Assembly: GCA_004764695.1 (NCBI GenBank)
Contig: SMSO01000031.1
Location: forward strand, 9,273,761-9,337,760
DNA length: 64,000 nt
Direction of reading: 5' to 3'
From: Schizochytrium sp. TIO01
Lineage: Eukaryota; Sar; Bigyra; Thraustochytrida; Thraustochytriidae
Shown: in pieces, positions 6,801 to 42,056 of the stretch
Numbering within the stretch: the first letter of the stretch is position 1
How the letters are laid out: each line of letters opens with the position of its first letter
The notes under the pieces: model-generated
The model's input: only the letters and a program-made list of their open reading frames with translations
What the model was told of the DNA's origin: nothing
Database searches by the model: none
Made by a program: the position numbers and the translations under genes

Positions 6801-7527
6801 GCCTCTCCCGCCTCCTGGCCAGGGAGAAGGGCGCGCTCGAAAGGAACGTTATAACTCTGGTACAACTGAAATCTTTCTTTCTCCGATCAGCTCATCATCT
6901 GAAACCAGAACTTCATCTACTGGTCATCGCTCAGACGAAGACGATCTCATGAGTCTGCATAAGAATAAGTCACTTAAAAAGGTAAAGCTCGAGGCGATGG
7001 CGATCGGCAATGTAGTATCCCAGCCAATTACATGCACAGAAGACCTTTTGCGCGAAGCAGGTCTAGAGGAACACATTGAGGAGTTTCAAAACGAAGATAT
7101 GGATCTTGAAGCAACAACATATGCTACCGAAGGCCAATTGCGTGACTTGGGTTTGTCAGTCGGTGAAGCTGCTCGACTTCGTCATATCACTCGTACATTG
7201 CAAAGGAAACTTGCAATGCCCGATCGATCGTCAACGGGCTCAAGCAGCGCTCGACTTTCGAACAAAAGTAATACTCAAAGCCAGTTACGCGGGGTGTTAA
7301 AGAAGCCACATCCAGAAGCCTACTCCGTGCTAGATAGACAAACACAATTCAATGTTGGCGACAGAGTTGCTGTAGAACGAACTGGAACCCGTACAGTTGT
7401 AGGGAAAGTTATTGAGGTAAAAGATACTGGGCATGCGACGCGAGAGCCACGATATGTTGTAGAGATCCAACAGGGTTCTGGTTCAAGAACGCAAATTGTA
7501 CGTGAGCCAGAGCTTCGCCGACGCTAA
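802..7527 (+). CDS. PAN/Apple-repeat, LRR, SAM-domain single-pass receptor-like protein
   Basis: Seen: 2,241 codons without an intron. A basic, low-complexity N-terminus (1-160) precedes a hydrophobic segment (164-182) ending GAICA|F, a likely signal sequence. An LRR-like stretch lies at ~208-273. Eleven Cys-rich PAN/Apple-like modules follow from ~334 to ~1570, each with YFAVKVSGNSN and CELYSDIS motifs and joined by Ser/Pro/Thr linkers. A second LRR segment with an N-cap (SGSNW...NPC) is at ~1615-1749. One TM helix (INWIWLIIIILLVVL) is near 1885-1910. The Ser-rich cytoplasmic tail holds a SAM domain (~2078-2135) and a final SH3/KOW-like module (~2184-2241, VGDRVAVERTG). Family knowledge: PAN domains bind glycans or proteins and SAM domains oligomerise. 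Inference: a plasma-membrane adhesion or recognition receptor signalling through SAM assembly. The start is uncertain: Met95 (1084) and Met117 (1150) also precede the signal segment, and the 710-910 frame overlaps Met1. Confidence 0.85.
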   Translation: MVQGNTTQKHLWDPSLLGCGTEVTPAQQYVARNCALRSRLAARVHIESVQRQQVCESIRNTTLWKRSGGTQRLPQHRSPQSPDLITCSSGGNVLMSSSLSFLQSTLSRVGQNKLIQMQIQSNKDPWEQQQQQHSSLLRRPCEETNSYSNRSSNHHKRRPHYARVSVITIITVILLFWHPGAICAFTNEGDQRAYANFVLHMSAGGETGMYFNYCSDQNTVNDPCSCNINGRQIVCNEEGRIQEIHLPENSLYGNLSPDILNMFTQLHALNLSSLTTNSAHRNLLKVSSAEVNCTNLSKCLDGSWTCDFSGSDLRMCSTKSSSSNLPQNKTKASFECAYDGYLITESTNGGEMPLNIKDVASAQHCWNLCTKYSFCLFFSFSPYGNTAGTCLLHSRLGDIQSNSKWLSGSKTCDDIFFSRSTSSIPASKSADQAISAATPTRRAVQALDDCYTEGYRYVRTGSQPIATETTDPDVASCQNVCLTNSDCLYFAIKVSGNSNAGQCELFSDISAGVTEASNWDLGPRSCSSSTPTSTPTDVPTTAASPTKEPTTSPTESCFTEGFRFERTDAQPFLTETTDPDADSCQALCETNDSCLYFAVKVSGNSNEGQCELYSDISAGTVEASNWVLGPRTCAGTTASPTVSPTPYPSIAISAPTTGTVAPTSDSASSPTIAPTSSPTECFTEGFRFERTDAQPFLTETTDPDADSCQALCETNDSCLYFAVKVSGNSNEGQCELYSDISAGTVEASNWVLGPRTCAGTTASPTVSPTPYPSIATSAPTTGTVAPTSDSASSPTIAPTSSPTECITEGFRFERTDAQPFLTETTDPDADSCQALCETNDSCLYFAVKVSGNSNEGQCELYSDISAGTVEASNWVLGPRTCAGTTASPTVSPTPYPSIAISAPTTGTVAPTSDSASSPTIAPTSSPTECITEGFRFERTDAQPFLTETTDPDADSCQALCETNDSCLYFAVKVSGNSNEGQCELYSDISAGTVEASNWVLGPRTCAGTTASPTVSPTPYPSIATSAPTTSTVAPTSDSASSPTIAPTSSPTECITEGFRFERTDTQPIDTETTDPDADSCQALCETNDSCLYFAVKVSGNSNEGQCELYSDISAGTVEASNWVLGVRECASTTIPSSIPTQAPTLSPTAGENTTRSPSVTMSPTTPSPTALPTECYTDGYRFERTDTQPIDTETTSPDADSCQALCQSNANCLYFAVKVSGNSNEGQCELYSDISAGTVEASNWVLGVRECASTTIPSSIPTQAPTLSPTAGEDTTRSPSVTMSPTTPSPTASPTECYTDGYRFERTDTQPIDTETTSPDAESCQALCQSNTNCLYFAVKVSGNSNDGQCELYSDISSGLTSASNWVYGPRTCGTSAPTSGSPSSTPTQTPTSGPTRAPSAAPTLCIIEGYRLERTDTQPFTTTTTDPTASACQSECVSVDGCIYFAVKVSGDSNTGQCELYSDISAGIVEAPNWVYGLGECGGPTATPTSSPTTCFFTDMTYTGEVIEELTSIASSTECQDECVTVDECYYFTFKYQGDNNGTCILLSAVNVTLTGEDNYESGPKVCGMSLAPTLAPTNRPVTSTAPTPTQTPTVSTTNPTSSPTSAPVTLSSDQSEAWTNMYDDLSGSNWVACTSDENPCNDPSCSTSSGNIQRYVSCSVQEDQRRLIRRSRRFLQSSSSPSSITAIVLPLNGMEGLLTKDTLDAWTSLEVLNLTGNDITGDGPNDCIDAQLCYESGVVCDVPSLCGEMYSVNSDGSSEWTPVNSTSDSYSTLDVSTGESVLFEFSNSSNVVRLASLDAYESCNFTDSTLLAGSSEGSYRFVADQEDEGKTVYITSSLPVGSHANCKNGQRIAIRVASVSTSAPTTSGGDTSDDSSKANGSGINWIWLIIIILLVVLCGLPCVILSTILCMGRFCPGSLPGCIQAPLDRCLLGSRSNSLGRKNFDSMLPYTSSEASTASPSGAGGSISLSPISTGSHQRAQQIKESEDDRLDNGSAFSPLPPPGQGEGRARKERYNSGTTEIFLSPISSSSETRTSSTGHRSDEDDLMSLHKNKSLKKVKLEAMAIGNVVSQPITCTEDLLREAGLEEHIEEFQNEDMDLEATTYATEGQLRDLGLSVGEAARLRHITRTLQRKLAMPDRSSTGSSSARLSNKSNTQSQLRGVLKKPHPEAYSVLDRQTQFNVGDRVAVERTGTRTVVGKVIEVKDTGHATREPRYVVEIQQGSGSRTQIVREPELRRR
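2470..4689 (+). repeat. Intragenic tandem repeat: four 372-bp units then two 366-bp units
   Basis: Units begin at the first Cys codon of each PAN module: 2470, 2842, 3214 and 3586 (372-bp spacing), then 3958 and 4324 (366-bp spacing, ending 4689). The 372-bp units are almost identical in DNA including synonymous sites and linkers. Variant bases alternate between units: an ATA/ACA codon in the linker alternates I-T-I-T, while the second residue of the module goes F-F-I-I. This mosaic suggests duplication in blocks plus gene conversion. Flanking PAN modules (1, 8-10) are clearly more diverged. Confidence 0.95.
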
Positions 7528-23539: not shown

Positions 23540-25954
23540 ATGTTTGCTGCACCAAGTCCAAGAGCTGCAGACATGAGCGGCAATGCCAGGGCTGTGCCCC
23601 TGGTGACCCCTCGCCGGAGCACACGTCGTAAAAGTGGCGCTCCTGCATCAACAACGAAGCGCACAACTACGGCACGTCGCACGGCCGGAGCTACAAGCAC
23701 ACGAAAGGTTGGGCGTTCGACTGCTCGACGTACTGTGAAAAGGGCTTCTGCCTCAGCTGCAAAGGGTTGGACAGCTCGCGTTGCAGAATCAGATAACCTA
23801 GAGTCTAGCTTCATGTCATTGGACGACGATGATGTTGATGTGGCACCTGACGCAAACTTTGAGAGCCACTTTACCGATGAAATCCGCAAAGAAGATGAAG
23901 ATTCATCGATATCTCCTAGTGGCAAAGCTGCAGACGAGAACTCTGGCGCTGGAGCAAATATGCCTAGAAGCCCAACATTGAATGAGCGGCTCAAACGCGC
24001 TGCAGACTCAGTGCGTCCATCATCGCATAGGCGCAACAAGAAAAGGCGCAAGACTAGTGGCCCCTCATCCCCGGTTATGAATCTTGATACTTCAATGTTT
24101 GACTCAGTGGATGTGAGTCCACAGAGTGATCGCAGCGGAAGATCTTCATCAGCAACAGCGCCTTCTGCTAAAAAGCAAATTAATTCTCAGAAGAAGGAGC
24201 TAGAGGAGGAAGAAGAGCGTAAGTCCCAGGCTCGCGACTTTAAAGATCGTGGAAACGAGCACTACGCTGAGAAGGATTATGAGTTAGCTGAAAAGATGTA
24301 CACGAAAGCCATTGAACTTGACCCAGGAAACTCCGTATACTATGGCAATCGTGCTGCTTCGAAACTTATGCAATCCCGTTACGTCGATGCTATTGAGGAT
24401 TGCAACAAGTCAATCGAACTTGACCCCTCTTACACACGTGCACGGGTACGCGCTGCCCGTGCTTCGCTAGCTTTGGGTGACATGGACATTTGCAAAGAGC
24501 ACCTTGGTGCGCTCGTAAGACAAGGTAAAGGTCACACAGAGGAAGTCAAAGAGATGCTCATTCTCTTTGCAGAGTATGAGCAACTTCTCGAAGACAGCGA
24601 TCTGGCTCTGAGCGAGGAAAACAGTGAGGAGTGCGAACGCCTCACTGATAGAGCGCTTCAAATTGCGCCAGGATCACGACGAATCTGGATCTGCAAACAA
24701 GCTTTGAAACTCCTCAGACTTGCTACATCTGGCAAAGCTCCTATGGTGAACAAGTCCGAGCTTCAGGGTGTGCGTGCTGAGCTTGAAGGAATCATTTCGG
24801 CAACACAGAATCCGAATGATGAGGAGATGCTGCTTGCCGAGTGCTACAATTATGCAAAAGTTTTACTGTATTGTGCTCTAACAACCGAGGCCAAGATCCT
24901 TTTTGGTGTCTGCTTGAAACTACGTCCTCAGGACGGACGAACCCTACGCCGAGTTGAGCAGGTCCGCGAGATGGAAACGCTACTCAACAAAGGTGTTGCT
25001 GCATTCTCAGATGGTCGTAATGAGGAGGCCTTAGAGACCTTTGATCGCGCACTTCAGCTCGATGCAGCCAACAAAGCTTTCAATGGTCGAATGTTCTTTC
25101 GTCGTGCTGCAGTAAATATGGCTCTTCACAGATTTCGTGATGCCATTGCAGACTGCAATCGGTCTCTAATGAATCTGCCTTTGTATCACAAAGCCCGTGT
25201 TCGGCGCGCGCACGCTTTCATGCGTCTTGGGGACTACAAAACTGCAGTCGAAGATCTTGAAAAAACATATCGAAAGCAACCTACTGCGGCAATTGCTCGT
25301 GAACTCAAGAGTGCTCGCGCTTTCTTGGAAAAGGCTCAGCGCAAGGAAGAAGAACGCAAGGCTAAAGAAGAGTTTGATAGGAAAAAGAAACAGCAAGAGT
25401 CAGCTGATTATTTTCGCTCCCGTCGCAGCACATTCGCAGGTCAGACAAAGGAAGACTCAACAGGTACCGCTAGTTCTGGATCTGCACGCTTTCGTCAGAC
25501 AAACTTTTTTTCCTCCTCGAACGCTTCTTCTAGTTCTTCTTCCTCGAGAAGAAGATCCGGGTCTAATGCATCTGGGGCAGGACCACGCACCAGAGCTAGC
25601 AGCAGTGGAAGTGGAAATAGCGGGGCAAACAACCAAGGAACTAAGCGAGAAGCGGAAGCACCCCCTCAACACAACTATAATACAAGAAGCAGCAAAAAGG
25701 CTGAGCGTCCTCAACGCCGGCGTTCTTTTGAACCTGAGACCACCAGTCATTATCAAGTCCTTGGCCTGGCGGCAACAGCAACCTCTGCTGCTGTGAAAAA
25801 AGCATACAAGCAAAAAGCTCTTCGATACCATCCAGACAAGTGCAAATCACCGAGTGCAGAAGCAAGGTTTAAGCGCGTGGCCGAAGCCTATCGCGTTCTC
25901 AAATCCCCTTCCACAAGACGTGCATATGATGCAAAGCAAACGAGCTATTGGTAG
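23540..25954 (+). CDS. TPR-DnaJ co-chaperone (DNAJC7-like layout)
   Basis: Seen: 804 residues. The N-terminus (1-80) is rich in Arg, Ala, Thr and Lys (RRSTRRKSG, RRTVKR), resembling nuclear or nucleic-acid-binding tails; an acidic Ser-rich linker follows. TPR repeats start at ~232 (DRGNEHYAEKDYELAEKMY), and a second TPR block lies at ~477-580 (NKGVAAFSDGRNEEALETFD). A charged coiled-coil helix is at ~588-625 and a Ser-rich linker at ~640-735. A C-terminal J domain (737-804) has the HPD motif at 764-766 and the helix II/III pattern KKAYKQKALRYHPDK. Family knowledge: J domains stimulate Hsp70 ATPase through HPD, and TPRs dock Hsp70/Hsp90 tails or clients, as in DNAJC7. Inference: a client-transfer co-chaperone, possibly nuclear because of the N-terminus. 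Met12 is an alternative start. It is convergent with the LRR gene, 180 bases apart. Confidence 0.9.
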   Translation: MFAAPSPRAADMSGNARAVPLVTPRRSTRRKSGAPASTTKRTTTARRTAGATSTRKVGRSTARRTVKRASASAAKGWTARVAESDNLESSFMSLDDDDVDVAPDANFESHFTDEIRKEDEDSSISPSGKAADENSGAGANMPRSPTLNERLKRAADSVRPSSHRRNKKRRKTSGPSSPVMNLDTSMFDSVDVSPQSDRSGRSSSATAPSAKKQINSQKKELEEEEERKSQARDFKDRGNEHYAEKDYELAEKMYTKAIELDPGNSVYYGNRAASKLMQSRYVDAIEDCNKSIELDPSYTRARVRAARASLALGDMDICKEHLGALVRQGKGHTEEVKEMLILFAEYEQLLEDSDLALSEENSEECERLTDRALQIAPGSRRIWICKQALKLLRLATSGKAPMVNKSELQGVRAELEGIISATQNPNDEEMLLAECYNYAKVLLYCALTTEAKILFGVCLKLRPQDGRTLRRVEQVREMETLLNKGVAAFSDGRNEEALETFDRALQLDAANKAFNGRMFFRRAAVNMALHRFRDAIADCNRSLMNLPLYHKARVRRAHAFMRLGDYKTAVEDLEKTYRKQPTAAIARELKSARAFLEKAQRKEEERKAKEEFDRKKKQQESADYFRSRRSTFAGQTKEDSTGTASSGSARFRQTNFFSSSNASSSSSSSRRRSGSNASGAGPRTRASSSGSGNSGANNQGTKREAEAPPQHNYNTRSSKKAERPQRRRSFEPETTSHYQVLGLAATATSAAVKKAYKQKALRYHPDKCKSPSAEARFKRVAEAYRVLKSPSTRRAYDAKQTSYW

Positions 25955-29084: not shown

Positions 29085-32000
29085 ATGCATTTTCTTCAAT
29101 CAGAGTTCCTAAATTTGCATCTTTTACATATTGGGGAGTACAATGTAAAGCGAAAGTACATGGGGTTGCAGACATGGCCAAGTAAATTAAGGTGGTCGCA
29201 AATACAGAATTTGATACTGTGTCTTTTTATCACAATATGGATTCAAGTTGGCCCTTGGGTCACAGAAGCCTATACTTCGAGTCCAGGCACAGGGGTAATG
29301 TACATGGAGGTTTACATTCAGCCTAGCGAGGGATACGCTGGTGAACCATTTGGAGTACAGCCTTGCATAGCCTTCTTGGACATACAAGGTCGTCTCGTCA
29401 ACACCACAATGAACTCGTACTACTCGACTGCAAAAACGTATGCTCGCTTCGAATTAGAAAACCTGCCTTCTGATTCAAGGTATGCTATCCTAGAGCAGGA
29501 AGGACGCGAAGGTGAAATTCCAGAAGTTGAAATTGTGGAAGGTTGGGCCAATTTTACGGGGCTCAAATTTGATGACTTAGGTGATGGTTTTATCATTAAC
29601 TTTTACACTGAAACCTTACAAGTTAACAGTGAACCAATGAGCAACCGTTTAGGTCTGCCATATGAGCTTCGTGTGATTCAGGATGTTGGTACGGCAACTG
29701 GTGGCGTAGAATTCAAACCTCAGCCAATTGTGGCTATTGTTGATAAGGGAGGGAACACTGTAACCACTGTATCAAGCGGAACTATGACAGTAAGCATTTG
29801 CCAGCCAAGCGATGGCATGGGCTGTGCAGCAAACCCAGGTGGTACCCTCACTAGCCTTGCTGCAACGTCTTCGTTCGTAGCTTCGATAAGTGCTGGGCGA
29901 GCTGTGTTTTCTGGATTGAGTATTGACAAAGCAGGAACGCCTTATCAACTACTCTTTGTGTCTACATATACTGGTCTATCTCAAACAACACTAATTACGG
30001 CAGAATTCACTGTAGGTGTTGGCCGTGCTGTAGAAATCCGCATGGAGCAAAATGTCTCTGATGCAAAGGGAGGTCTTCCTTTCGGACAACAGCCAGTTAT
30101 CTCCCTACGCGATGCAGGAGGAAACATTGTTACAGAAGATAATGTACAGCCACCCTACTCAACAGTCAGTCTGCATTTAAGTAATAATCCGACTGTCGCA
30201 TTGCTTTCCTCAGCACTCAATAGCTCCCGAACTCTATATTTCACTTCTGGCATTGCCACATGTGTAGACTTCAAAATTAACAAAATTGGCCAAGGCTATC
30301 AAATTGGGTTCACAGCTAATATGCGAACTGCAACCGGAATTGCCTATACAGTGTATACAGATTCCCCGCCTTTTGATGTTACACTTGGTGATCCAACAGC
30401 TCTGGAGATACAGCGTGGCGTCGGTGGGGCATACGCCGGAGGACTACCTTTCTATGAGCAACCTATTATTCAGCTAGTAGATGGCGGTGGAAATGTCTAT
30501 GATACAGAAAGTAACGCCCAAGTTGAAGCTCAGTTAGTCGTGAGTCCAGGTGGCTTCGAGATGTTAGGTGTTCATGAAGCAACATTTTTCAAAGGGGTGG
30601 CTCGCTTTCGTTCTCTGAAAATCATCCAGCGAGGGGTAGGTTACACAATTACATTTAATTCCACAGTAGATGGGCAGACCCTCTATGTAAATAACACCTT
30701 CGATGTACTCTCCTCATGTGAATTTGAGCTGATGGCAGATGACGCTGAGAAGGATGACCGTTTCGGACATTCGGTGTCGATCTATGATGATACCCTTGTG
30801 GTAGGTGCGCCCTTTGAAGCTCAAAGTGTATATGAGGTACAACGAGTGACAGCATTAGCTGAAGAGGGTACTGTGTTGACAAATCAAGTCCAGAGGGTTC
30901 AAATTCGAGGCCGCCACCAAACAGAAATTCAAGTTGTATCTTCGTGTGGAAACGGTGCAGCATCCAGCACGCTTGCAGGATATTTCACGTTGACGTTTGA
31001 AGGACGAACGAGTCGACCATTGCGCTATGACATACACCCAAATGTACTGAAGAGCTACCTGGAAACCGATATACCTGCTGTTGAGACTCTCACTATCGAG
31101 AAAGTAGCGAACTCTAATTGTAATGCCAGCAACAGCTATAATTGGACCATCTACTTCAGCGAGCTAGAAGGAGAAATTCCTGAATTTGTTGTAAATTACG
31201 TTGGTCTTAGCACTTCAGCAAGCCCTGATCCAACAACCTTTCGATACTCGGCAACCGAGTTCAAGGGAATGCAATCTGCAAGCTCTGCTGATGATGTGTC
31301 AGTTACCGTGACAACTCTTAGCGATAGCCCTATAATTACTGGCTCATTCAACCTTATTGTAGGAGGTGATGGGACCCCCTTAGGAGATGATGTTGAACCT
31401 CTTGCGACAGAGAATATTTCAATCTCTGCCACTGGTGTTCAACTAAAAACAGCCGTAGAAACCGCAGTTCGGCAACTTGTTGGATCTCATTATCAAAGCA
31501 TTTACACATCATTCAATCTGCTTGATGTCACCCGAACCGGGCCAGATAGTCAAGGTGGATATATATGGGATCTTACTTTCCCCGCTACGGTAAATGGGGT
31601 ATATGACTGGCGCACTATCGAGGTCGACATTAGTGGGCTTTCAGGGCTTGGAGTTAACTCCCTCGTAACAATTACACAAGAAGGCCAATCCCCTCTAGCT
31701 GGAAATTTTGCTTTGTGGTTTAAGAATCAAGGTCCAACTCCTATTCTTGCATATAATGAGCCAGAAGCCACTTTCAAAGCCAAGCTAGAAACCTTGCCAA
31801 CTATCCAGGATGTCACTGTGGTACGCTCGACCACGTCATCTGGTTATGTCTGGACTGTTACTTTTCTTGCAACATCCAACAAAACAGAATATGGATTTGT
31901 CGCTGACGAAATAGGTAATCTACCTCCGCTGAAAGCAGACACATATGAACTCCGCGGCACAAATGCTCAAATCCTTATTGAGTACGCATATGCAGTAGAT

Positions 32001-32348
32001 AACATGGACACGCTCAAGTGTCAGACAACACTTGATGAGGTCACTGAATATGACGCAAACGTCGAGCCGTCAAACTGCGTCTTGCAAGATATTGACGAGT
32101 TTTTGCTTCCTGAAGATATGCCAGTAATGGGAAAAAAGGGGTCTGAAGCTGGTGCCGCTTACATCATGTATCGTGACGAGGCAAACCTAAAGTGGAGTCA
32201 AGCTGTAAAACTTCGTGGGTCTGACTCAACGCCTTATGATAACTTTGGATGGGCAGTCAGTTACGACAATTCTACCAATGCTGGTGGAGATCAGACAGGG
32301 AATAATTGCTGTTGGTGCCCCCCACGCAGAATATCGCGGAAATGCTGA
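29085..32348 (+). CDS. Giant secreted adhesin-like protein, 5' part (before frameshift)
   Basis: Seen: 1,087 codons. A hydrophobic signal segment lies at ~42-58 (NLILCLFITIWIQVG) followed by WVTEA|YT; Met26 is an alternative start nearer to it. Residues ~80-540 hold four ~115-residue beta-rich repeats with the pattern GG.PF..QP.I...D.GGN.V. An FG-GAP-type motif follows (DRFGHSVSIYDDTLVVGAP), then a series of ~90-residue modules with G.F.L.F....T..L.Y, LET...I..V.V and Y.WTV.F. The frame ends inside a second FG-GAP motif: DNFGWAVSYDNSTN is read, but the expected IIAVGAP is found only in the +1 frame. So this is not a complete protein: it continues into 32215-38922. Many N-glycosylation sequons. 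Inference: extracellular matrix or adhesion protein. Confidence 0.8.
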   Translation: MHFLQSEFLNLHLLHIGEYNVKRKYMGLQTWPSKLRWSQIQNLILCLFITIWIQVGPWVTEAYTSSPGTGVMYMEVYIQPSEGYAGEPFGVQPCIAFLDIQGRLVNTTMNSYYSTAKTYARFELENLPSDSRYAILEQEGREGEIPEVEIVEGWANFTGLKFDDLGDGFIINFYTETLQVNSEPMSNRLGLPYELRVIQDVGTATGGVEFKPQPIVAIVDKGGNTVTTVSSGTMTVSICQPSDGMGCAANPGGTLTSLAATSSFVASISAGRAVFSGLSIDKAGTPYQLLFVSTYTGLSQTTLITAEFTVGVGRAVEIRMEQNVSDAKGGLPFGQQPVISLRDAGGNIVTEDNVQPPYSTVSLHLSNNPTVALLSSALNSSRTLYFTSGIATCVDFKINKIGQGYQIGFTANMRTATGIAYTVYTDSPPFDVTLGDPTALEIQRGVGGAYAGGLPFYEQPIIQLVDGGGNVYDTESNAQVEAQLVVSPGGFEMLGVHEATFFKGVARFRSLKIIQRGVGYTITFNSTVDGQTLYVNNTFDVLSSCEFELMADDAEKDDRFGHSVSIYDDTLVVGAPFEAQSVYEVQRVTALAEEGTVLTNQVQRVQIRGRHQTEIQVVSSCGNGAASSTLAGYFTLTFEGRTSRPLRYDIHPNVLKSYLETDIPAVETLTIEKVANSNCNASNSYNWTIYFSELEGEIPEFVVNYVGLSTSASPDPTTFRYSATEFKGMQSASSADDVSVTVTTLSDSPIITGSFNLIVGGDGTPLGDDVEPLATENISISATGVQLKTAVETAVRQLVGSHYQSIYTSFNLLDVTRTGPDSQGGYIWDLTFPATVNGVYDWRTIEVDISGLSGLGVNSLVTITQEGQSPLAGNFALWFKNQGPTPILAYNEPEATFKAKLETLPTIQDVTVVRSTTSSGYVWTVTFLATSNKTEYGFVADEIGNLPPLKADTYELRGTNAQILIEYAYAVDNMDTLKCQTTLDEVTEYDANVEPSNCVLQDIDEFLLPEDMPVMGKKGSEAGAAYIMYRDEANLKWSQAVKLRGSDSTPYDNFGWAVSYDNSTNAGGDQTGNNCCWCPPRRISRKC

Positions 32349-35300
32349 AGTCCAGTCAATCACATGCAGCGCAGATAGCGGCCAGCTTGCTTTCCGTTTT
32401 CGATCCCATCTATCTGGCTACATTTCTTACAATGCTACCGCCCCAGAGCTAGAAGCGGCCCTGGAGGAAGCATCCTCCATCACAGATGTTAGCGTGACCT
32501 ACTTTTTAGGGACTACAGATAAGACAAGCGAGCTTGCTTCAGACAGTGGTCATGGACTATGTCAACCAAATACAACAGATACCGGGAGCCGTATCATTGC
32601 TCTTGTTACATTTATCTATCCAGACAATGGTGACTTGCCGATGATGGAAGCAATTACATACAACGTCAAAGTTGATACAATTCCAATACTTTTTGACTCA
32701 ACAGCAGCCGAAGGGCGCAATTACTACCATTACGGCGTGGTCACAATTGCAGAAACTGTCGAGGGTTCAATTCTTGGGAAGGAATCTGGTGAATCTGGAT
32801 ACATGACTGGAGCAACGTACATCTTTACTCCAGACAAGAACAATGGAGTAGAGTCTCCATTGAACTCGTGGACTCAAGATGCCAAAATCCTTAGCTCGGA
32901 TGGAATTGCAGGTGATGAGTTTGGCTATTCAGTGGGCGTTTATCAGCTTACTGTTGTGGTAGGAGCTCCACACCACGCATACGATGTCTCTGGAGCTAAT
33001 GAAATGGCCAGTGCTGGGGCAATTTATATTTTTAAGCAGCAAACAGGAGGTAATTGGCTACAAACTCAAAAGCTTGTGATACCAGATCGGGCGGTAAATG
33101 ACTTCTTTGGAAAGGCAGTACTTATTAAAGGTGATGTAATCTATGCTTCAGCTCCTGGGAAAAATAATGCGACAGGACGAGTGTATATTTTTAAGCGTCA
33201 AGCTGTTTCGAGGCCATTTGTCTTCGATCAAGCAATTACCCCAGCCGATTCTCTGCCTGGAGATAATTTTGGCAATTCGCTTGCTGCATATGACAATACC
33301 CTCGTTATAGGTGCCGAATATGCTGATGGTCTCGAGGATTTGTCAAATGACACAGTTTACGTTGCAGGAGCTGAACAGATGCAAGGCCGTTCTCAAAAGC
33401 CGCGTAATACCTATGGACTTATCGATTGTGGAGCTATATACTCATACACGCGGGCTTCAGTCCGCAATATCTATATAATGCAACAGAAGATTCTTCCTCG
33501 CACCCCTCGTTCTGGAGGGCGATTCGGACATGCTGTGAGTGTTGAACGAGATTTACTTCTTGGAACTGAGCAAGAAGAATATGTAGGGAAGTTCAACGCA
33601 AGAAGGTACATATTCTTAATTCGAACTTATATACCTCAAAATCTTCTTAACAACACAGATTCTACGCCAAAAATTGGCAACCTCTTTGCCCTCACGTGGA
33701 GGAAAGAAGTATCGTCAAAGCCACAACTTGAGGAAGATATTCGTATTACGAGATTTAGTGTCCCAAAGTATACAGGAGCGGGAATTGAAGAGACTGTATA
33801 TACTGATCAATTTGAAGATGTCCAGACCTCATGGCTGTCTTTCAACGCAAGCGCAGCCGATGTCCAATATAGTATTAACCACGAACTCGATGCTGGGGAT
33901 ATTGTCGTTTCTCGCAGCGACGCAGATGAGTATGGAGGCCATACATGGGTAGTCACATTTTTAGATGTGACTGCAAAGGGCGGCGCGGCGGGGTCGATAC
34001 CACTGCTAGGGGCAAAAAGTCAGCTCTCAGGAGGCGGAGAAATTGAGGTACTGATTGATCAAGAGCCTCTTCCATATATACATGGCGAAACTCATCTGTT
34101 TAAACGCAGCCCATCTACAACTGGTGAGTGGAAACAGCACGCTATACTAAGGCCAGAGGTTCAACAAGATGGAGATCTTTATGGTGAGTCGATCTCCATG
34201 CGGGGACGATACGCGGTAGTGGGAACCCCTAATAGAGATAAACTGGACCTCTCTGGGATCAATGGTGGAGCTGCATATGTATTTGATTTAGGCTTTGTAA
34301 ACACAGCGTTTGAATCAAGCAACTTCAATGTGTCAGAGGCAGTAGGTGGAACTTCACTCACCATAACCAGGTGCTCACCAACCTGTGTTGTAGGTCGCAA
34401 CCCACCTTCGGGGACGCTTCCATATGACTTCGCCCTTGACGAAAGGGTTGCTATACAATATCTCTTAGTTGACGGAACAGCTCGCTCTCGTGCAGACTGC
34501 CTTCTGGATTCAAATGCATCAAAACAATGCGTCTGGCTAAATTCAGATAAGCATGATTGGGATGCCTCAAAAATAGTTCCGGATACATATATTGATGTTC
34601 AATATACGGATCCACTCTTCTTTTCTCCTTCACGATTCTATTCTCCTGCCAACTTCTCCGATTCAACAACTTATTCACAGTCTGTTCTGGGCAATTCACA
34701 GTATCATAAGTATGATTTTCGTGCTCAGTCCGACTATGCTCCAACTGGAGGGCAAATGATCTTTGATCCTGATGAAAAGAGCAAAACTTTCGAGGTGGTG
34801 GTTACAAATGACGAGATAAATGAACAACCTGACGAGACTGTGAATCTGTTAATTTTTTCAGCTGGTATGCGACCAATACCTGGAGGAGACTATTGGTCTG
34901 TTCTTACGATTGAAGATGATGGTGATGGAGGTGTCGGGTCTCAAGATACCTTCGATAAGCACTTCGCTCCTGATCCTGCGTCAAAAGCTCGCTATGGAAC
35001 AGCAACCTCTGCTGATGGGCGTATTGCTGTTGTAACTGCACCTTTACAGCCGAAAGATGGCATGGTAGAGGTCGGCGCAGCTTATGTGTATCGTAAATCA
35101 GACAGTGGCATATGGGAGATAGAGCAGACCTTGGAGTCCCCCAATGCAACTACTTCGGGACGATTTGGGCTCTCTGTGCACACCTCTGATATGGATCCGC
35201 ACCGAATTATCGTGGGGGCACCAGGAGAAAGTCCTCCTGCGGTGTACATTTACATTCGTGTGGCCAGCACTCCAAGTCTCAAACCGACATCAGTTCCTGG

Positions 35301-38300
35301 TACTTGGGAACTTGAAGCGTATTTTGCTCTGGACCCCGAAATTATTTTCGATCTACGCTGTGATCCAGATAATAGTGGTACTCAATCACGATGTCGGAAC
35401 AGCCATAATCCAGCAAATCGGGACTCCTTTTATGCTGGCCCAAATGCCGTGGCGGTACATAGCAACTTCGCTGCAGTTGGAGCAAAAGGACTTGAGGCTG
35501 TCTTTCTTTATCGCTTCAGACGAAATTATGAGTGGTACTTCTTTCAAATGATTAAATCCTCAGATTACCAGGACACTATGTACCCGATGGGCTCAGAACA
35601 TCGCAAAATCTATGTTACACGCCCACACTTTGGAGCCAGCGTATCGCTGTATGATGACACACTACTTGTAGGCGCTCCACTTGGTGCTAATGAGCGGTAT
35701 GAGGACCCAAATAAGCTAACCGACCAAGACACGGGACTTACTTGCGCGGAAGCTGGTTTTTTAACGGCTGACAACAGTGCACCTACTCTATACAATTGGT
35801 CTATGAATTCGTACGGAAATGCGTACATGTGGAGTTCAGCAACATCTAATGAAACTGCGATATACGAGGAAAAGGTAAATGGAGGTCTGACACTTCAGTC
35901 GGTAGTAACTTGTGAGGAGACAGATGCATTTAAGTTGACTATCCGCAGCAACGGCATTCCAAACCATGAAATGGGTTTGTTTCCATTAACTTCCGACACG
36001 ATGTTTACAAATCAGTCTGACAATGCAAATTTTGTTGAGCCTCAAGGACACGTTATCTACCTCCCGCGTTTTCCAAACATCACAGTTGTAAACCCTAGAT
36101 CAGTTCTTGTAGATTCTACTGCACTCCCGGACGGTCCTATCGGTTTTGCACTAAATGGTGTTCCGTTTTTGAACCCATTTACGTCAGATGGCGATGATGC
36201 AACCAAGGCGAGCTCAGTCGGCTACAGTGGGAATTTTCCTGACTTGTGCAATGGTGCACCTGTATCTGGTAATATGTATGGCTACCGAACAAACCCAATT
36301 TGCCTTTATGACCAGCCAGTGGAAATCGAGTCTCCGCAAATGATCACTGGAAAATACTATCCATTTGGGTTTGATCCAGACAATATCACAAATCCAACTC
36401 CTGGAGAAAGATCTCCGAAGCTAGGCTACGCTTTGGATGGTTTTCCAATATATGGGCCGTTTGATGAAAACGGTGATCTCCCTAGTGATCTAGATGAGTG
36501 TAATGGTCGATATGACACCTCCCTCGGAAATTACATATACCATATAACCCCCTATAAAGCACCTTACATACTCGGGTGTTTCCGAGGCAAGATCAGCATT
36601 GAAGTTCCTTTTACAACGAATCCATTTCCTGAATTCAGCCCTGGGGCTAACAATGCACGCGATCTGTCTTTTTATGGCAAAGGAAAGGTGTTTGTTTTTC
36701 TTTTGCGAAAGCTGACCGAGTATGGAGTTGTTACTCCAGGCGAAGTGAACGGGATGGACTTATCCCCCAAAGCGAACCCGTATGACGGCCTGGAAGTGCA
36801 AGATGTCTGGCTTGAGCAAACTTCGCTTCTTTCTAATGACGGGGAGCAGGGAGATCGCTTCGGCACTGCCTTGGCTATTGATGTAGATCAAGTACTCGTT
36901 AGCGCTTTTCGTGATAGTGCGAAACCTCGTAGCACGTGGGATTTTGAGACCGGAGATCTGCGGGGTTGGACAAAAACTGGCGATGCATTTGACATGCAAC
37001 CTACCTTTGGGGACAATAGTGTTTACCGAAACGTGTATGGTGACTGGCTGGTTTCCAACTTCCGCGACTATGCTCGGAAAACCTATATTGGTAGCTCCAA
37101 TCGAGAAGGCACGAAAATTGACATTGCAGAGTATATCACAGGTGAAGATCGCACCGTACCATATGGTCCTGGAAGCACCCATGTGGACCATCCTATTCCG
37201 CAAACCTTGCCTGCACATGAGCTGCAAAGAATAATGTTTGGCTTTAAGCCAAATCGAGGAGAGTCTGCAAAGCTTCGGGGGAGGTTCTACATTGGAACCT
37301 TTGAAGCGCGGCCTGCGGTATACGAAGGTAATAGTTTCGAGCCTACGTACGAAGAAGGTCGGGTGCAAGGGGACGAACCCCAAGGAACTTTGACATCAGA
37401 CGTTTTTCAAATATATGGGACTAAAATAAGCTTCTTGATTGGAGGTGGGTGCAGCATTGACCATGAATACGTTGAGCTCATTGTAGATGGTGTGCCCGTC
37501 CGCCGAGAGACAGGACAATGCCGCGAGGAAATGCGCCGAGTTGTGTGGGATGTGTCAATGTATCGCTGGCAAAGCGCAGTAATTCGTTTAGTGGATGCAA
37601 GCTCAACAACTTGGGGTCACATAAATTTTGATGATGTGCGATTCAACTGGCATCCTTCTTATGAGTCGAAATCAACTACACCTTCTTCAGATGGCAGTAA
37701 TAATCGTTTTCCATCTGGAGGTGCAATGTTATACTCAGGGGAACCCCAAGCAGGAGCGGTTTATGCTTTTCGTAGGCGGTCATCTGTGCTTCCTGAGGAG
37801 CCTTGTGAGCGAGATTGTGACGCAACTGGGTGTTTCTACATAAATACTCCACCAAATCGTTCTTCTTGTGAATGGGAAGAGCAGCAAAAGCTCCAGCCTA
37901 GTGACCGTAGGGCGTATGAAGCCTTTGGATGGTCCTTGGATATTGATGACACAACTGGATTAGCACTGGTGGGAGCAGTGAACGGTCGTGTAGTAGATGC
38001 GCTTAATCGCGACGACCTTGGAGGCCGGGCACAAACTGGAGCAATCTATGTATTTCGAAGAAATCCAGAAGTTCGCACAGATATTGGAACCTTCATATCT
38101 AAACCGTACTGGATGCCGCAGGAGAATATGAAACTCCAGTATCCGGACCTTGCTGAATCTGAACGTGGCCAATTTGGCTATAGCGTCTCTCTCACTGGGT
38201 ATGATGCGATTGTTGGGGCTCCTGGTAAACCAGCTATTGGTCCTATTGGTTCAGACTATCCCGATCATAATTCTGCGAGCCTACGTGCCTATCCAAATGG

Positions 38301-38922
38301 GGGAGCCATGTATAGCATTGATGTAAGTGCTGTCAATGTGCGTTTTGAGCAAAAGGAATATAGTGTTCTCGAAAACCATCAAACGTTGGCTTCTATGCAA
38401 AACAGGGTAAAAATTCAAGTGCGCCGTTTTAGTGATCTTAATACTACCGTACAGGTAACATACTCAACTTCTGATATTACTGCGAATGGCGTTTCAGAGG
38501 CCCAAGCTGCATACTGTCAAACACTGTTGTATACAAAACGAGGGCAGAATTATTGCGGGGATTATGTTCAGCAGTCAGGAGTAATAACATTTGACCCAGA
38601 TGATGAAGTAGTGGAATTCGAGTTGCGAACGATCAATGATAATTGTAATGAAGGACACTCTGAGTATGTTCTACTCCAGTTGGGGATCCCAGGTGGTCCA
38701 GTTATATTGGGAGAACAATATGTTGCGCGCCTTCGCATTGATGATGATGACAACAGTGTTCAAGTCAACCGTTTGTTCTGTCCAGAAATGTCATATCCCA
38801 TTTCGCGCTACCACCCTTTCTATAGCGCATCAGAAGTGCCTGATTTGAAGGGTACCCCGGCGTCTCGGCATCCCATCGCTGAGACTGAGCACAGTAAATG
38901 GGTTTTGGAGCACGTCAAATAA
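32215..38922 (+). CDS. Giant secreted adhesin-like protein, 3' part (FG-GAP, YHYH, Calx-beta)
   Basis: Seen: 2,235 codons open. The frame begins without a believable ATG or signal peptide (GTG at 32215), because it is the continuation of 29085-32348; meaningful sequence starts near 32300 (IIAVGAPHAEY). About twelve FG-GAP-like motifs recur (GDEFGYSVGVY, GDNFGNSLAAY, RPHFGASVSLYDDTLLVGAP, RGQFGYSVSL and others), as in integrin-alpha-type beta-propellers. A Calx-beta domain lies at ~838-905 and another at ~2041-2179. A YHYH-type domain is at ~1305-1461 (GYALDGFPIYGPFDENG, DECNG, NYIYHIT). A secreted beta-sandwich module is at ~1575-1812 (WDFETGDLRGWT, SFLIGGGCSID, WGHINFDDVRF). No C-terminal TM helix or GPI-like tail, so secreted. 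With the 5' part the protein is ~3,270 residues. Inference: calcium-dependent adhesion or matrix protein; no catalytic activity claimed. Confidence 0.85.
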   Translation: MGLTQRLMITLDGQSVTTILPMLVEIRQGIIAVGAPHAEYRGNAEVQSITCSADSGQLAFRFRSHLSGYISYNATAPELEAALEEASSITDVSVTYFLGTTDKTSELASDSGHGLCQPNTTDTGSRIIALVTFIYPDNGDLPMMEAITYNVKVDTIPILFDSTAAEGRNYYHYGVVTIAETVEGSILGKESGESGYMTGATYIFTPDKNNGVESPLNSWTQDAKILSSDGIAGDEFGYSVGVYQLTVVVGAPHHAYDVSGANEMASAGAIYIFKQQTGGNWLQTQKLVIPDRAVNDFFGKAVLIKGDVIYASAPGKNNATGRVYIFKRQAVSRPFVFDQAITPADSLPGDNFGNSLAAYDNTLVIGAEYADGLEDLSNDTVYVAGAEQMQGRSQKPRNTYGLIDCGAIYSYTRASVRNIYIMQQKILPRTPRSGGRFGHAVSVERDLLLGTEQEEYVGKFNARRYIFLIRTYIPQNLLNNTDSTPKIGNLFALTWRKEVSSKPQLEEDIRITRFSVPKYTGAGIEETVYTDQFEDVQTSWLSFNASAADVQYSINHELDAGDIVVSRSDADEYGGHTWVVTFLDVTAKGGAAGSIPLLGAKSQLSGGGEIEVLIDQEPLPYIHGETHLFKRSPSTTGEWKQHAILRPEVQQDGDLYGESISMRGRYAVVGTPNRDKLDLSGINGGAAYVFDLGFVNTAFESSNFNVSEAVGGTSLTITRCSPTCVVGRNPPSGTLPYDFALDERVAIQYLLVDGTARSRADCLLDSNASKQCVWLNSDKHDWDASKIVPDTYIDVQYTDPLFFSPSRFYSPANFSDSTTYSQSVLGNSQYHKYDFRAQSDYAPTGGQMIFDPDEKSKTFEVVVTNDEINEQPDETVNLLIFSAGMRPIPGGDYWSVLTIEDDGDGGVGSQDTFDKHFAPDPASKARYGTATSADGRIAVVTAPLQPKDGMVEVGAAYVYRKSDSGIWEIEQTLESPNATTSGRFGLSVHTSDMDPHRIIVGAPGESPPAVYIYIRVASTPSLKPTSVPGTWELEAYFALDPEIIFDLRCDPDNSGTQSRCRNSHNPANRDSFYAGPNAVAVHSNFAAVGAKGLEAVFLYRFRRNYEWYFFQMIKSSDYQDTMYPMGSEHRKIYVTRPHFGASVSLYDDTLLVGAPLGANERYEDPNKLTDQDTGLTCAEAGFLTADNSAPTLYNWSMNSYGNAYMWSSATSNETAIYEEKVNGGLTLQSVVTCEETDAFKLTIRSNGIPNHEMGLFPLTSDTMFTNQSDNANFVEPQGHVIYLPRFPNITVVNPRSVLVDSTALPDGPIGFALNGVPFLNPFTSDGDDATKASSVGYSGNFPDLCNGAPVSGNMYGYRTNPICLYDQPVEIESPQMITGKYYPFGFDPDNITNPTPGERSPKLGYALDGFPIYGPFDENGDLPSDLDECNGRYDTSLGNYIYHITPYKAPYILGCFRGKISIEVPFTTNPFPEFSPGANNARDLSFYGKGKVFVFLLRKLTEYGVVTPGEVNGMDLSPKANPYDGLEVQDVWLEQTSLLSNDGEQGDRFGTALAIDVDQVLVSAFRDSAKPRSTWDFETGDLRGWTKTGDAFDMQPTFGDNSVYRNVYGDWLVSNFRDYARKTYIGSSNREGTKIDIAEYITGEDRTVPYGPGSTHVDHPIPQTLPAHELQRIMFGFKPNRGESAKLRGRFYIGTFEARPAVYEGNSFEPTYEEGRVQGDEPQGTLTSDVFQIYGTKISFLIGGGCSIDHEYVELIVDGVPVRRETGQCREEMRRVVWDVSMYRWQSAVIRLVDASSTTWGHINFDDVRFNWHPSYESKSTTPSSDGSNNRFPSGGAMLYSGEPQAGAVYAFRRRSSVLPEEPCERDCDATGCFYINTPPNRSSCEWEEQQKLQPSDRRAYEAFGWSLDIDDTTGLALVGAVNGRVVDALNRDDLGGRAQTGAIYVFRRNPEVRTDIGTFISKPYWMPQENMKLQYPDLAESERGQFGYSVSLTGYDAIVGAPGKPAIGPIGSDYPDHNSASLRAYPNGGAMYSIDVSAVNVRFEQKEYSVLENHQTLASMQNRVKIQVRRFSDLNTTVQVTYSTSDITANGVSEAQAAYCQTLLYTKRGQNYCGDYVQQSGVITFDPDDEVVEFELRTINDNCNEGHSEYVLLQLGIPGGPVILGEQYVARLRIDDDDNSVQVNRLFCPEMSYPISRYHPFYSASEVPDLKGTPASRHPIAETEHSKWVLEHVK
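32298..32300 (+). other. Frameshift point in the giant gene (GGG run)
   Basis: Upstream frame: GAT CAG ACA GGG AAT. Removing one G gives GAT CAG ACA GGA ATA ATT GCT GTT GGT, which restores an FG-GAP motif across the junction and joins the two long frames. The frames overlap from 32215 to 32348. One extra base, real or a sequencing/assembly error, is the simplest explanation; programmed +1 frameshifting is an alternative. Confidence 0.75.
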
Positions 38923-39221: not shown

Positions 39222-41471
39222 TCACGACGATTTGCTTTTACTTTGAATTGCAAAAAGCTGATCATTGGCCTCCTTGACAGACTCTGCGTTCGCATCACCT
39301 TCTGAAAACCAGTCATACTCATCGTCTGTAATTGTCTCGTTATCTTCTCGATCTACATCTTGGTCATTGCTTGAAGTCCCACGTGTTTTTCTGGTTGGCG
39401 AACTTTCATTACTGGGCTCAATCTTAACTCCTACTAGACTGTCCCCTTCGTCATCCTCACTTGCCATACCGCTTTCGTCATCTTCATCGTCATCTTCATC
39501 GTCATCTTCTCCTTCTTCGTCGAGCTCATCAAGGTCTTCATCACCAATTCTCATATTCACAATCTGTTCATATTCATCAACAGAGGTTGCACGCAGCTCA
39601 AGAAGGGCCAGTCTACTGAGGCTATCAACAAGATCATCCGTATCCTCTTCGACGCGGTAGACATCAAAAGCAGCTAATAGACGCGCGTCCCGCCTCATAA
39701 TCAGGGGGCCTAACACCGCCGCTTCCTCAGGGTCAAGTTCACCGTGAGCAACGAGATAAAAAATCGTGTCGAGGATAAGTTTATCCAAATTTATCTCGTT
39801 GGGAGTTGCTGCAGATGCATTCGTATCAGCAGACTTAGAAGCCCAGCTTTGAACAGCTTCAGGGCCAGCAACAATCGAAATCTGCTTCAGAGTATCGATA
39901 AAGTCGTCGAGATCCATTGTAGCGGCATGCGCCTCGTGAGCAGCAAGAATCCTCTCATCTTGTTTGCTAACGAGTGAGCTCAGTACTTGAAACTGGAGCT
40001 CAGAAAATACACCATCCTGGTATAGTGAGCGTACGAAGTCCATGGTTTCACTAGCCTCTTTCCCTAAGGTAGAGTCCATTTGCTGAGGGTGTGCTTTGCT
40101 TTGGCTTCGAACCATGCATATCCTGTGAAGTGAGTCAATTGTATCTTCAAGATCGCCATCTGCAAGCAAAACATCGAACACTGCAAAAACACCAGGATCA
40201 TTGCGCTGCAATAGATCAACAAGGATGCGAACTTCCACACTATCAAATACTCCTTGGCGAAGCATCTTGGCTAGAAAAGCACCTTTATCAAAGTCAATAA
40301 GAATGGTAAGAAGCTGATCTGCAAGAATACGTTCGTTCTGGTGATCACAGTACACCTTCCAAGCCTGGGAGACACTAGAGTGGGTCTCACGGTACATGCG
40401 AATAAGAATTTTAGCTTCAGGTTGAGAAATATATCCATGCTGAAGCATCATTACGAGAACACGCTCGAGACCGTAAAAGCGTGCAATACGACGCAAGGTG
40501 TCAGCAAAGTCCTCTTCATCGCCTCGGTCCTCATAGACTTGAGAAGCAGCCTGGACAAGAGGGTTTCTCAGGTCCACTAAACGCTTGACTGTCAGTGTTT
40601 CGGTTGGAGTCAAAAGACCTCGCCGATGGAGAGCTACAATAACTTGATAAAGTAGCTGCTGGTCTTCTTCGTCCATATCTTCGTCCTCTAAGAGTTCATC
40701 CCCTTCTTCTTCATCATCGTTATCGTCGTCGTCATCATCATCGTCGTCATCATCATCGTCGTCGTCATCATCGTCGTCGTCATCCTCCTCGCCTTCATCA
40801 TATGAGGAATCTATACGCTCCGCGATATGTGCAATGTGATGAAGGGTATCTGTGAGGTCCTCCCAGTCTTTGTCTTCAGTGTACACATCGATAGCAGCGA
40901 TTACTCGATCATCGCCTTCGGAAGCAAGTCGACGGATGATATCAGCTTGGGCCTCTGAAAGCTCATTTTGATCCTCCATGTAGGTCACAGCCATCAAGAG
41001 GTTAGCTTGCTTGAACCATAACTCCTCTTCAGCGCTGTCTGATCGTGATTCATCAAATGGGTGAATTTCGGCACCGGCTTCGTTAGACTCGTCATCTGTA
41101 GCATCATCGTGGATCTCGTTCATTTCGAAGCTAGCATTCGATGCATTGGACGCCATAAAGCGAGTGGAACTACTCGGAGTGGGAGTTGATGAACGAGATT
41201 GAACACCAGATAATTTTGAGGCCAACATTGAGGATGACTTGTATAAAATGCGATAATGATCATGGTCAAGAAGGTCCGGGGCCTCGCAAATAGTTCTGAT
41301 TCCAAAGATTGATTCATCACGAGGGTCTTCGAGGCCAACAACACCTGTGCGTCCAGAAACTCTTTCGAGGATTGCTATGAGTTCTGATGGGGGAATTCCA
41401 GGAAACAGAAGAACTTCGAACCTTCGCCCGAGACCGTCTATTACGGCCACGCGGTAGGTGTCCACCTCCAT
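39222..41471 (-). CDS. Acidic protein with six copies of an unassigned ~60-residue helical repeat
   Basis: Seen: 749 residues. The N-terminal ~80 residues look like a compact alpha/beta domain (YRVAVIDGLGRRFEVLLFPG, then GLEDPRDESIFG and ICEAPDLL). Six helical repeats lie at ~151-220, 271-334, 335-397, 398-455, 477-540 and 565-630. The shared pattern is a helix ending in G-hydrophobic, then E..IL..L....D..V.AA..VY....D..D..DTL.RI; examples are RVIAAIDVYTEDKDWEDL and RLLAAFDVYRVEEDTDDL. Between repeats 1 and 2 is an acidic linker with 21 consecutive Asp, and residues ~645-745 are strongly acidic. No TM helix, signal or catalytic motif. I recall similar repeats in other protist proteins but know no family name. 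Inference: a solenoid-like scaffold, with acidic parts possibly binding basic proteins or calcium. It is convergent with the giant secreted-protein gene, 299 bases apart. Confidence 0.75.
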   Translation of the reverse strand: MEVDTYRVAVIDGLGRRFEVLLFPGIPPSELIAILERVSGRTGVVGLEDPRDESIFGIRTICEAPDLLDHDHYRILYKSSSMLASKLSGVQSRSSTPTPSSSTRFMASNASNASFEMNEIHDDATDDESNEAGAEIHPFDESRSDSAEEELWFKQANLLMAVTYMEDQNELSEAQADIIRRLASEGDDRVIAAIDVYTEDKDWEDLTDTLHHIAHIAERIDSSYDEGEEDDDDDDDDDDDDDDDDDDDDDNDDEEEGDELLEDEDMDEEDQQLLYQVIVALHRRGLLTPTETLTVKRLVDLRNPLVQAASQVYEDRGDEEDFADTLRRIARFYGLERVLVMMLQHGYISQPEAKILIRMYRETHSSVSQAWKVYCDHQNERILADQLLTILIDFDKGAFLAKMLRQGVFDSVEVRILVDLLQRNDPGVFAVFDVLLADGDLEDTIDSLHRICMVRSQSKAHPQQMDSTLGKEASETMDFVRSLYQDGVFSELQFQVLSSLVSKQDERILAAHEAHAATMDLDDFIDTLKQISIVAGPEAVQSWASKSADTNASAATPNEINLDKLILDTIFYLVAHGELDPEEAAVLGPLIMRRDARLLAAFDVYRVEEDTDDLVDSLSRLALLELRATSVDEYEQIVNMRIGDEDLDELDEEGEDDDEDDDEDDESGMASEDDEGDSLVGVKIEPSNESSPTRKTRGTSSNDQDVDREDNETITDDEYDWFSEGDANAESVKEANDQLFAIQSKSKSS

Positions 41472-41961
41472 GATAATCGACGTGGAACGAAATCAAAATA
41501 GAGAGAGCGAGAAAAACCGCGATAAGACCAAGCAGGAAACAAAGACTCTACCAAAACCAGGCCTTATGGAAAGAGTCAAAGGTATTTGAATAGGTATTAA
41601 GTTATCTCGAGAGGGTCCGGCAGTGTATGAAGCAGTTTGGACGTCGTTGGTTTTTGATCTCCTTTCTTCGCTTGCACTTCGAGGCTCTCTCTTCTCTTTG
41701 CTTTACTATAATCTCAGTATTAGTGCTGGTATCTGTCTCCCATAGTAGGTACTCTAATAGTTATTTAACAAGTTGGTACGTACTATTAGTATAGCTATCT
41801 GACTGTTTTTTTCTTTCCTTCAGCGAAGGCCTTCAGAAAGAAATCTTTGATATTAGTAGTTACCTATGCAGTGGATAATATTTTAAATTAAGAGAAATTA
41901 TCAAACTTGAATATTTATGAAGAATCACTTTAAAAAATTAAAAAAAATCTTTACTAAGCAT

Positions 41962-41985
41962 GTAGGTAGGTAGGTAGGTACCTAC
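41962..41985. repeat. TAGG tetranucleotide array ending in a palindrome
   Basis: Consecutive GTAG/TAGG units run into GTAGGTACCTAC, a perfect 12-base palindrome. This is the densest example of the TAGGTA motif that recurs near genes in the window. Confidence 0.85.
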
Positions 41986-42023
41986 TGTACTGATTGTGCA
42001 TAATAGATACTATGTATCCACCT

Positions 42024-42056
42024 ACCTATCAATCCTTTTTTACTTGGGTAGATATT
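42024..42056 (+). repeat. Short dispersed repeat, copy 2
   Basis: CCTATCAATCC, a T-run, then ACTTGGGTAGATAT. Near-identical to 15659-15689 and again next to TACCTAC motifs. Confidence 0.55.

Follow-up and report, generated by a model that had tools for sequence, protein, structure and literature searches.

Among solved structures, the closest match to the predicted fold of the repeats reported here is the VEL domain. VEL domains polymerise head to tail, using an isoleucine together with a pair of basic residues (PMC7614096). Within its fold class, VEL has been described as the exception in being able to assemble; the ZRF1 and DAXX bundles belong to the same class and lie within histone-binding proteins, and do not polymerise (PMC7614096). 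Here we consider an acidic protein of Schizochytrium sp. TIO01 that carries six repeats whose fold is probably not new and, as judged from structure models, resembles this VEL or atypical four-helix-bundle class.

The gene lies in a 64,000-nucleotide stretch of DNA, which we refer to as the window. Its reading frame (39222-41471, minus strand) is open over 749 codons without an intron, and the encoded protein is strongly acidic. The features are as follows.

39222-41471, minus strand: whole open reading frame, 749 aa, computed pI 4.07, single exon
41223..41471, minus strand: predicted ubiquitin-like beta-grasp domain, aa 1-83 (single-sequence fold prediction, pLDDT 68)
40821..41003, minus strand: repeat 1 (R1), aa 157-217, profile match
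40656..40820, minus strand: acidic linker between R1 and R2, aa 218-272, net charge -41, holding the 21-Asp run
40722-40784, minus strand: 21-Asp run, aa 230-250, mixed GAT/GAC codons
40473..40655, minus strand: repeat 2 (R2), aa 273-333, profile match
40290..40469, minus strand: repeat 3 (R3), aa 335-394, most diverged, profile and structure model
40107..40280, minus strand: repeat 4 (R4), aa 398-455, profile and structure model
39867..40049, minus strand: repeat 5 (R5), aa 475-535, profile match
39600..39779, minus strand: repeat 6 (R6), aa 565-624, profile match
39225..39599, minus strand: acidic C-terminal tail, aa 625-749, net charge -36, probably disordered to judge from its composition

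An earlier note on this DNA, made from the sequence alone, had described an aspartate linker interrupting the array after the first repeat, and the run is indeed exactly 21 Asp long and lies between R1 and R2. Within the tail, aa 681-692 (39396-39431, minus strand; GVKIEPSNESSP) include a sumoylation-like psi-K-x-E site, VKIE, followed by SP. A Ser-rich ORF of 131 aa at 39265-39660 on the plus strand lies opposite the Asp/Glu-rich coding sequence and is an antisense artefact of acidic codons. A microsatellite of the TACC/GGTA type is found upstream of the gene at 41960-42040.

Further reading frames of the window lie on the plus strand. Two overlapping ORFs of 1087 and 2235 aa at 29085-38922 resemble a single giant FG-GAP-like surface protein with a change of frame near 32285-32300, where no intron is obvious; the change could reflect an assembly indel, a frameshift or decay of the gene. 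At 802-7527, a 2241-aa protein consists of near-identical tandem cysteine-containing modules of ~100 aa with PTxxPT linkers between them; to judge by eye, a membrane-spanning segment and a SAM-like region on the cytoplasmic side follow. A third protein (23540-25954) has TPRs, a C-terminal J-domain and a long basic N-terminus, and is DNAJC7-like by eye. The genome also carries long polyunsaturated-fatty-acid synthase genes.

The claim that the protein holds six copies of one repeat is borne out. A profile built from the six segments finds exactly six copies of ~60 aa each in the 749-aa protein, and to guard against circularity each repeat was scored by a profile of the other five and compared with shuffled sequences (n=3000). 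All six are significant in these leave-one-out tests, with 47.7, 37.0, 17.1, 43.9, 41.2 and 46.0 bits for R1 to R6 (E from 2e-7 to 7e-17 at Z=1); R3 is the weakest, and 0 of 3000 shuffles reach the score of any repeat. The shared motif described earlier is correct for five repeats, in which the D..DTL.RI ending is clear, but R3 retains only part of it and its ending is degenerate (ERILADQLLTIL). Conservation of the terminal Asp, on the other hand, holds throughout, the residue being present ahead of the final Leu in 6/6 repeats; the metal role suggested for it gained no support. Any two repeats are 15-32% identical, with third codon positions close to random; the duplications are therefore old, and it is the protein that preserves the repeat pattern.

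By sequence, the repeats match no named family in the libraries searched. Neither the whole protein, nor any single repeat, nor an artificial consensus had a Pfam match above cut-off. The earlier statement that the repeats are not ankyrin, armadillo, HEAT or TPR agrees with the absence of any match of these Pfam models to the protein or its natural repeats at E up to 10, and the artificial consensus alone gave TPR_7, at E 0.28. NCBIfam and PDB sequences yielded no noteworthy match beyond the acidic run, and a PHROGs search of the protein gave acidic low-complexity or sub-threshold matches only. At E up to 10, neither the protein nor its individual repeats match the Pfam model of the VEL domain, VIN3_C (PF23380), although a control VEL sequence matches that model at 1e-30; a search of the whole genome with PF23380 was likewise negative, but control genomes gave no match either. 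Viral and prokaryotic contigs scanned for relatives of the repeat contained none, and a viral structure library gave no match. Forty-two viral loci were picked out by a DxRxxAAxDVY pattern at the DNA level; none exceeded 14.6 bits and, given that the motif had served to select them, they were set aside as chance. Because the repeats have no match among Pfam, NCBIfam or PDB sequence models, their standing as an unnamed sequence family without a Pfam model is supported. The suggestion that the family is undescribed is supported at the level of sequence, within the libraries searched; the fold is probably not new.

The repeat is not confined to this gene. The genome (64 Mb in 37 contigs) was searched exon by exon, a procedure that may miss diverged copies. 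With tblastn, the consensus repeat recovered five of its own six copies and one locus outside the gene, C34:977405-977572 (E 0.0012), which is its sole outside match in the 64 Mb. The locus corresponds to the C-terminus of an ORF that we call P0001.

L031 1471-2781 (genome C34 near 977400), minus strand: P0001, 436 aa, with a polyQ stretch, an acidic region, RPEL and one predicted four-helix domain

RPEL is the motif by which MRTF and Phactr proteins bind actin. In P0001 it is detected in four stretches (PF02755, E 1.9e-11, 43.7 bits over a cut-off of 23), and in a search of the genome no protein other than P0001 exceeded the cut-off. A literature search for RPEL in oomycetes, protists or Phytophthora found nothing. 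The seventh copy, present in another protein, supports the repeat family as real, and the lone copy in P0001 implies that the unit is an autonomous domain able to stand alone. As far as sequence can tell, the putative four-helix domain is known in two architectures in one genome. Two other kinds of match were rejected: a weak one at C36:1275849, in a GTPase-like ORF without the repeat motif, was attributed to chance, and further whole-protein matches in the genome fell mostly within the acidic run.

The compact N-terminal domain that had been placed ahead of the array is also present, at about aa 1-80, and is predicted to be a beta-grasp, with the element order E-E-H-E-E-H-H-E. Its model resembles Hub1 (Foldseek E 2e-3, probability 1.00), and its further neighbours are doublecortin (Z 8.7), PB1 (Z 8.1) and many UBLs (7-8). 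No Pfam UBL model matches the domain, and we assign it as ubiquitin-like with moderate confidence.

For the repeats, AlphaFold2 modelling of R3 and R4, using an alignment with two further rows (three in total), gave pLDDT 87.4 and pTM 0.63. The modelled helices are 3-13, 18-29, 33-45 and 48-62 in R3, and 64-73, 79-90, 94-106 and 109-125 in R4; the helical nature proposed for the repeats is thereby upheld, and each repeat is predicted to be a self-contained four-helix bundle. The relative orientation of R3 and R4 is uncertain because of the pTM.

Foldseek found nothing significant with the repeat model (E 4 or more). With VIA-align, the polymerising VEL domain of VEL1 from Arabidopsis comes first (7o6v_A, Z 8.3, 2.5 A, 63 residues), followed by 7o6w (Z 8.2; 2.5 A and 62-63 residues for the VEL pair) and, as the next unrelated entry, one at Z 4.4. 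Helical bundles scoring under Z 13 may match through common arrangement, and we therefore regard VEL as a partly supported lead. None of three sequence comparisons gave significant evidence of homology to VEL: hhalign gave a probability of 0.2-0.4% (P 0.14-0.32), HMM scores of repeats against VEL fell inside the shuffle range, and global profile alignment gave a z of about 3. The comparison is a weak one because the VEL profile had two members only. In these non-significant alignments, the position of VIN3 R554 is occupied by Q/E/L and that of R556 by mixed residues in 3/4 alignments, so that the basic head pair of VEL does not appear to be conserved; the position of I575 is V/A in the repeats, in a register that is unsure.

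What might such a protein do? Our tentative preference, which we hold at somewhat less than even odds, is that it is a multivalent scaffold, with a ubiquitin-like head, six autonomous four-helix modules, acidic linkers that are uneven and in part flexible, and an acidic tail. It looks like a scaffold because the module also ends the genome's only detected RPEL protein. In such a scheme, (i) the four-helix domains would bind one another or a common ligand; (ii) the six-copy protein would thereby cluster partners that have one copy each, for example the RPEL protein; and (iii) the acidic spacers would hold the modules apart. From the likeness to the VEL fold and the shared domain, we hypothesize that the domains, that of the RPEL protein included, self-pair, and we infer from the same two observations that G-actin might be clustered through the RPEL protein. 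A far more specific version, in which the repeats are a VEL-like, head-to-tail self-assembling family outside plants and six joined copies recruit the RPEL protein into a polymer-based system by which a stramenopile senses or clusters actin, seems to us very improbable.

The main rival to the scaffold is an array, perhaps nuclear, that binds a ligand and does not polymerise. According to this scenario, the four-helix units are peptide or protein binders like those of DAXX and ZRF1, their number provides avidity for an external ligand rather than self-association, and the protein may be linked to histones or chromatin. Consistent with such binders are the non-polymerising members of the VEL fold class, the net charges of the R1-R2 linker (-41) and the tail (-36), and the lack of conservation of the VEL head residues. 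However, acidic runs are common, which weakens the nuclear part of the argument, and ZRF1, Zuotin and DAXX are missing from the fold-match lists, an absence that does not exclude likeness. We consider this reading unlikely, although a serious competitor.

A second alternative, that the repeats form one continuous superhelix of the general alpha-helical solenoid kind, bears on the regular solenoid envisaged in the earlier note. R2, R3 and R4 do abut, with gaps of 1 and 3 residues, and perhaps form a rigid block; in the structure model, a single residue separates the final helix of R3 from the opening helix of R4, into which it continues. However, the other linkers are much longer, the five from R1 to R6 measuring 55, 1, 3, 19 and 29 residues, and such spacing argues for beads rather than a solenoid. 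The four-helix units, the single copy in P0001 and the failure of the HEAT, ARM, TPR and ankyrin models to match likewise oppose a regular solenoid, which we regard as improbable. Finally, it is highly unlikely that the link to P0001 is chance and its C-terminal 60 residues merely share a helical, charged composition: direct BLASTP does give an E of merely 0.01 and the homology rests on a six-repeat profile from one protein, but the six-repeat HMM finds P0001 at E 4e-4 for 15000 sequences, its C-terminal copy scores 25.1 bits with 0/3000 shuffles equal, it is the one non-self match to the consensus, and it carries the AA..VF....DTM.R motif in the right order.

Returning to the scaffold, an implication of self-pairing, if it occurs, is that a second lineage would use a VEL-like bundle for assembly, and that VEL-like assembly would be connected with actin rather than with Polycomb silencing. 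Should self-pairing not occur, the repeats still represent a concrete sequence family that has two architectures in one genome and was missed by domain libraries.

The protein can be set beside four known systems. Like TPR, ankyrin, armadillo and HEAT proteins, it has tandem alpha-helical units; unlike them, its units are predicted to have four helices each, are irregularly spaced, occur also singly and have no Pfam match to those families. The likeness to RPEL-repeat proteins (PF02755) lies in the motifs of its relative P0001, whereas Pfam detects no RPEL in the six-repeat protein. The atypical four-helix bundles of ZRF1/Zuotin and DAXX are alike in belonging to the VEL fold class, but are single copies in chaperone proteins and are not among the fold matches. 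Compared with the VEL domain of VIN3 and VEL1 (PF23380; 7o6v, 7o6w), which is present as one C-terminal copy after PHD and FNIII, the repeats stand six in tandem in an organism that is not a plant, with neither significant sequence similarity nor, apparently, the basic head pair. The likeness lies in the predicted fold of our repeats, with four helices in about 62 residues, and in two stretches of similar appearance: the G-hydrophobic turn that follows helix 1, and DT(F/L) at the close.
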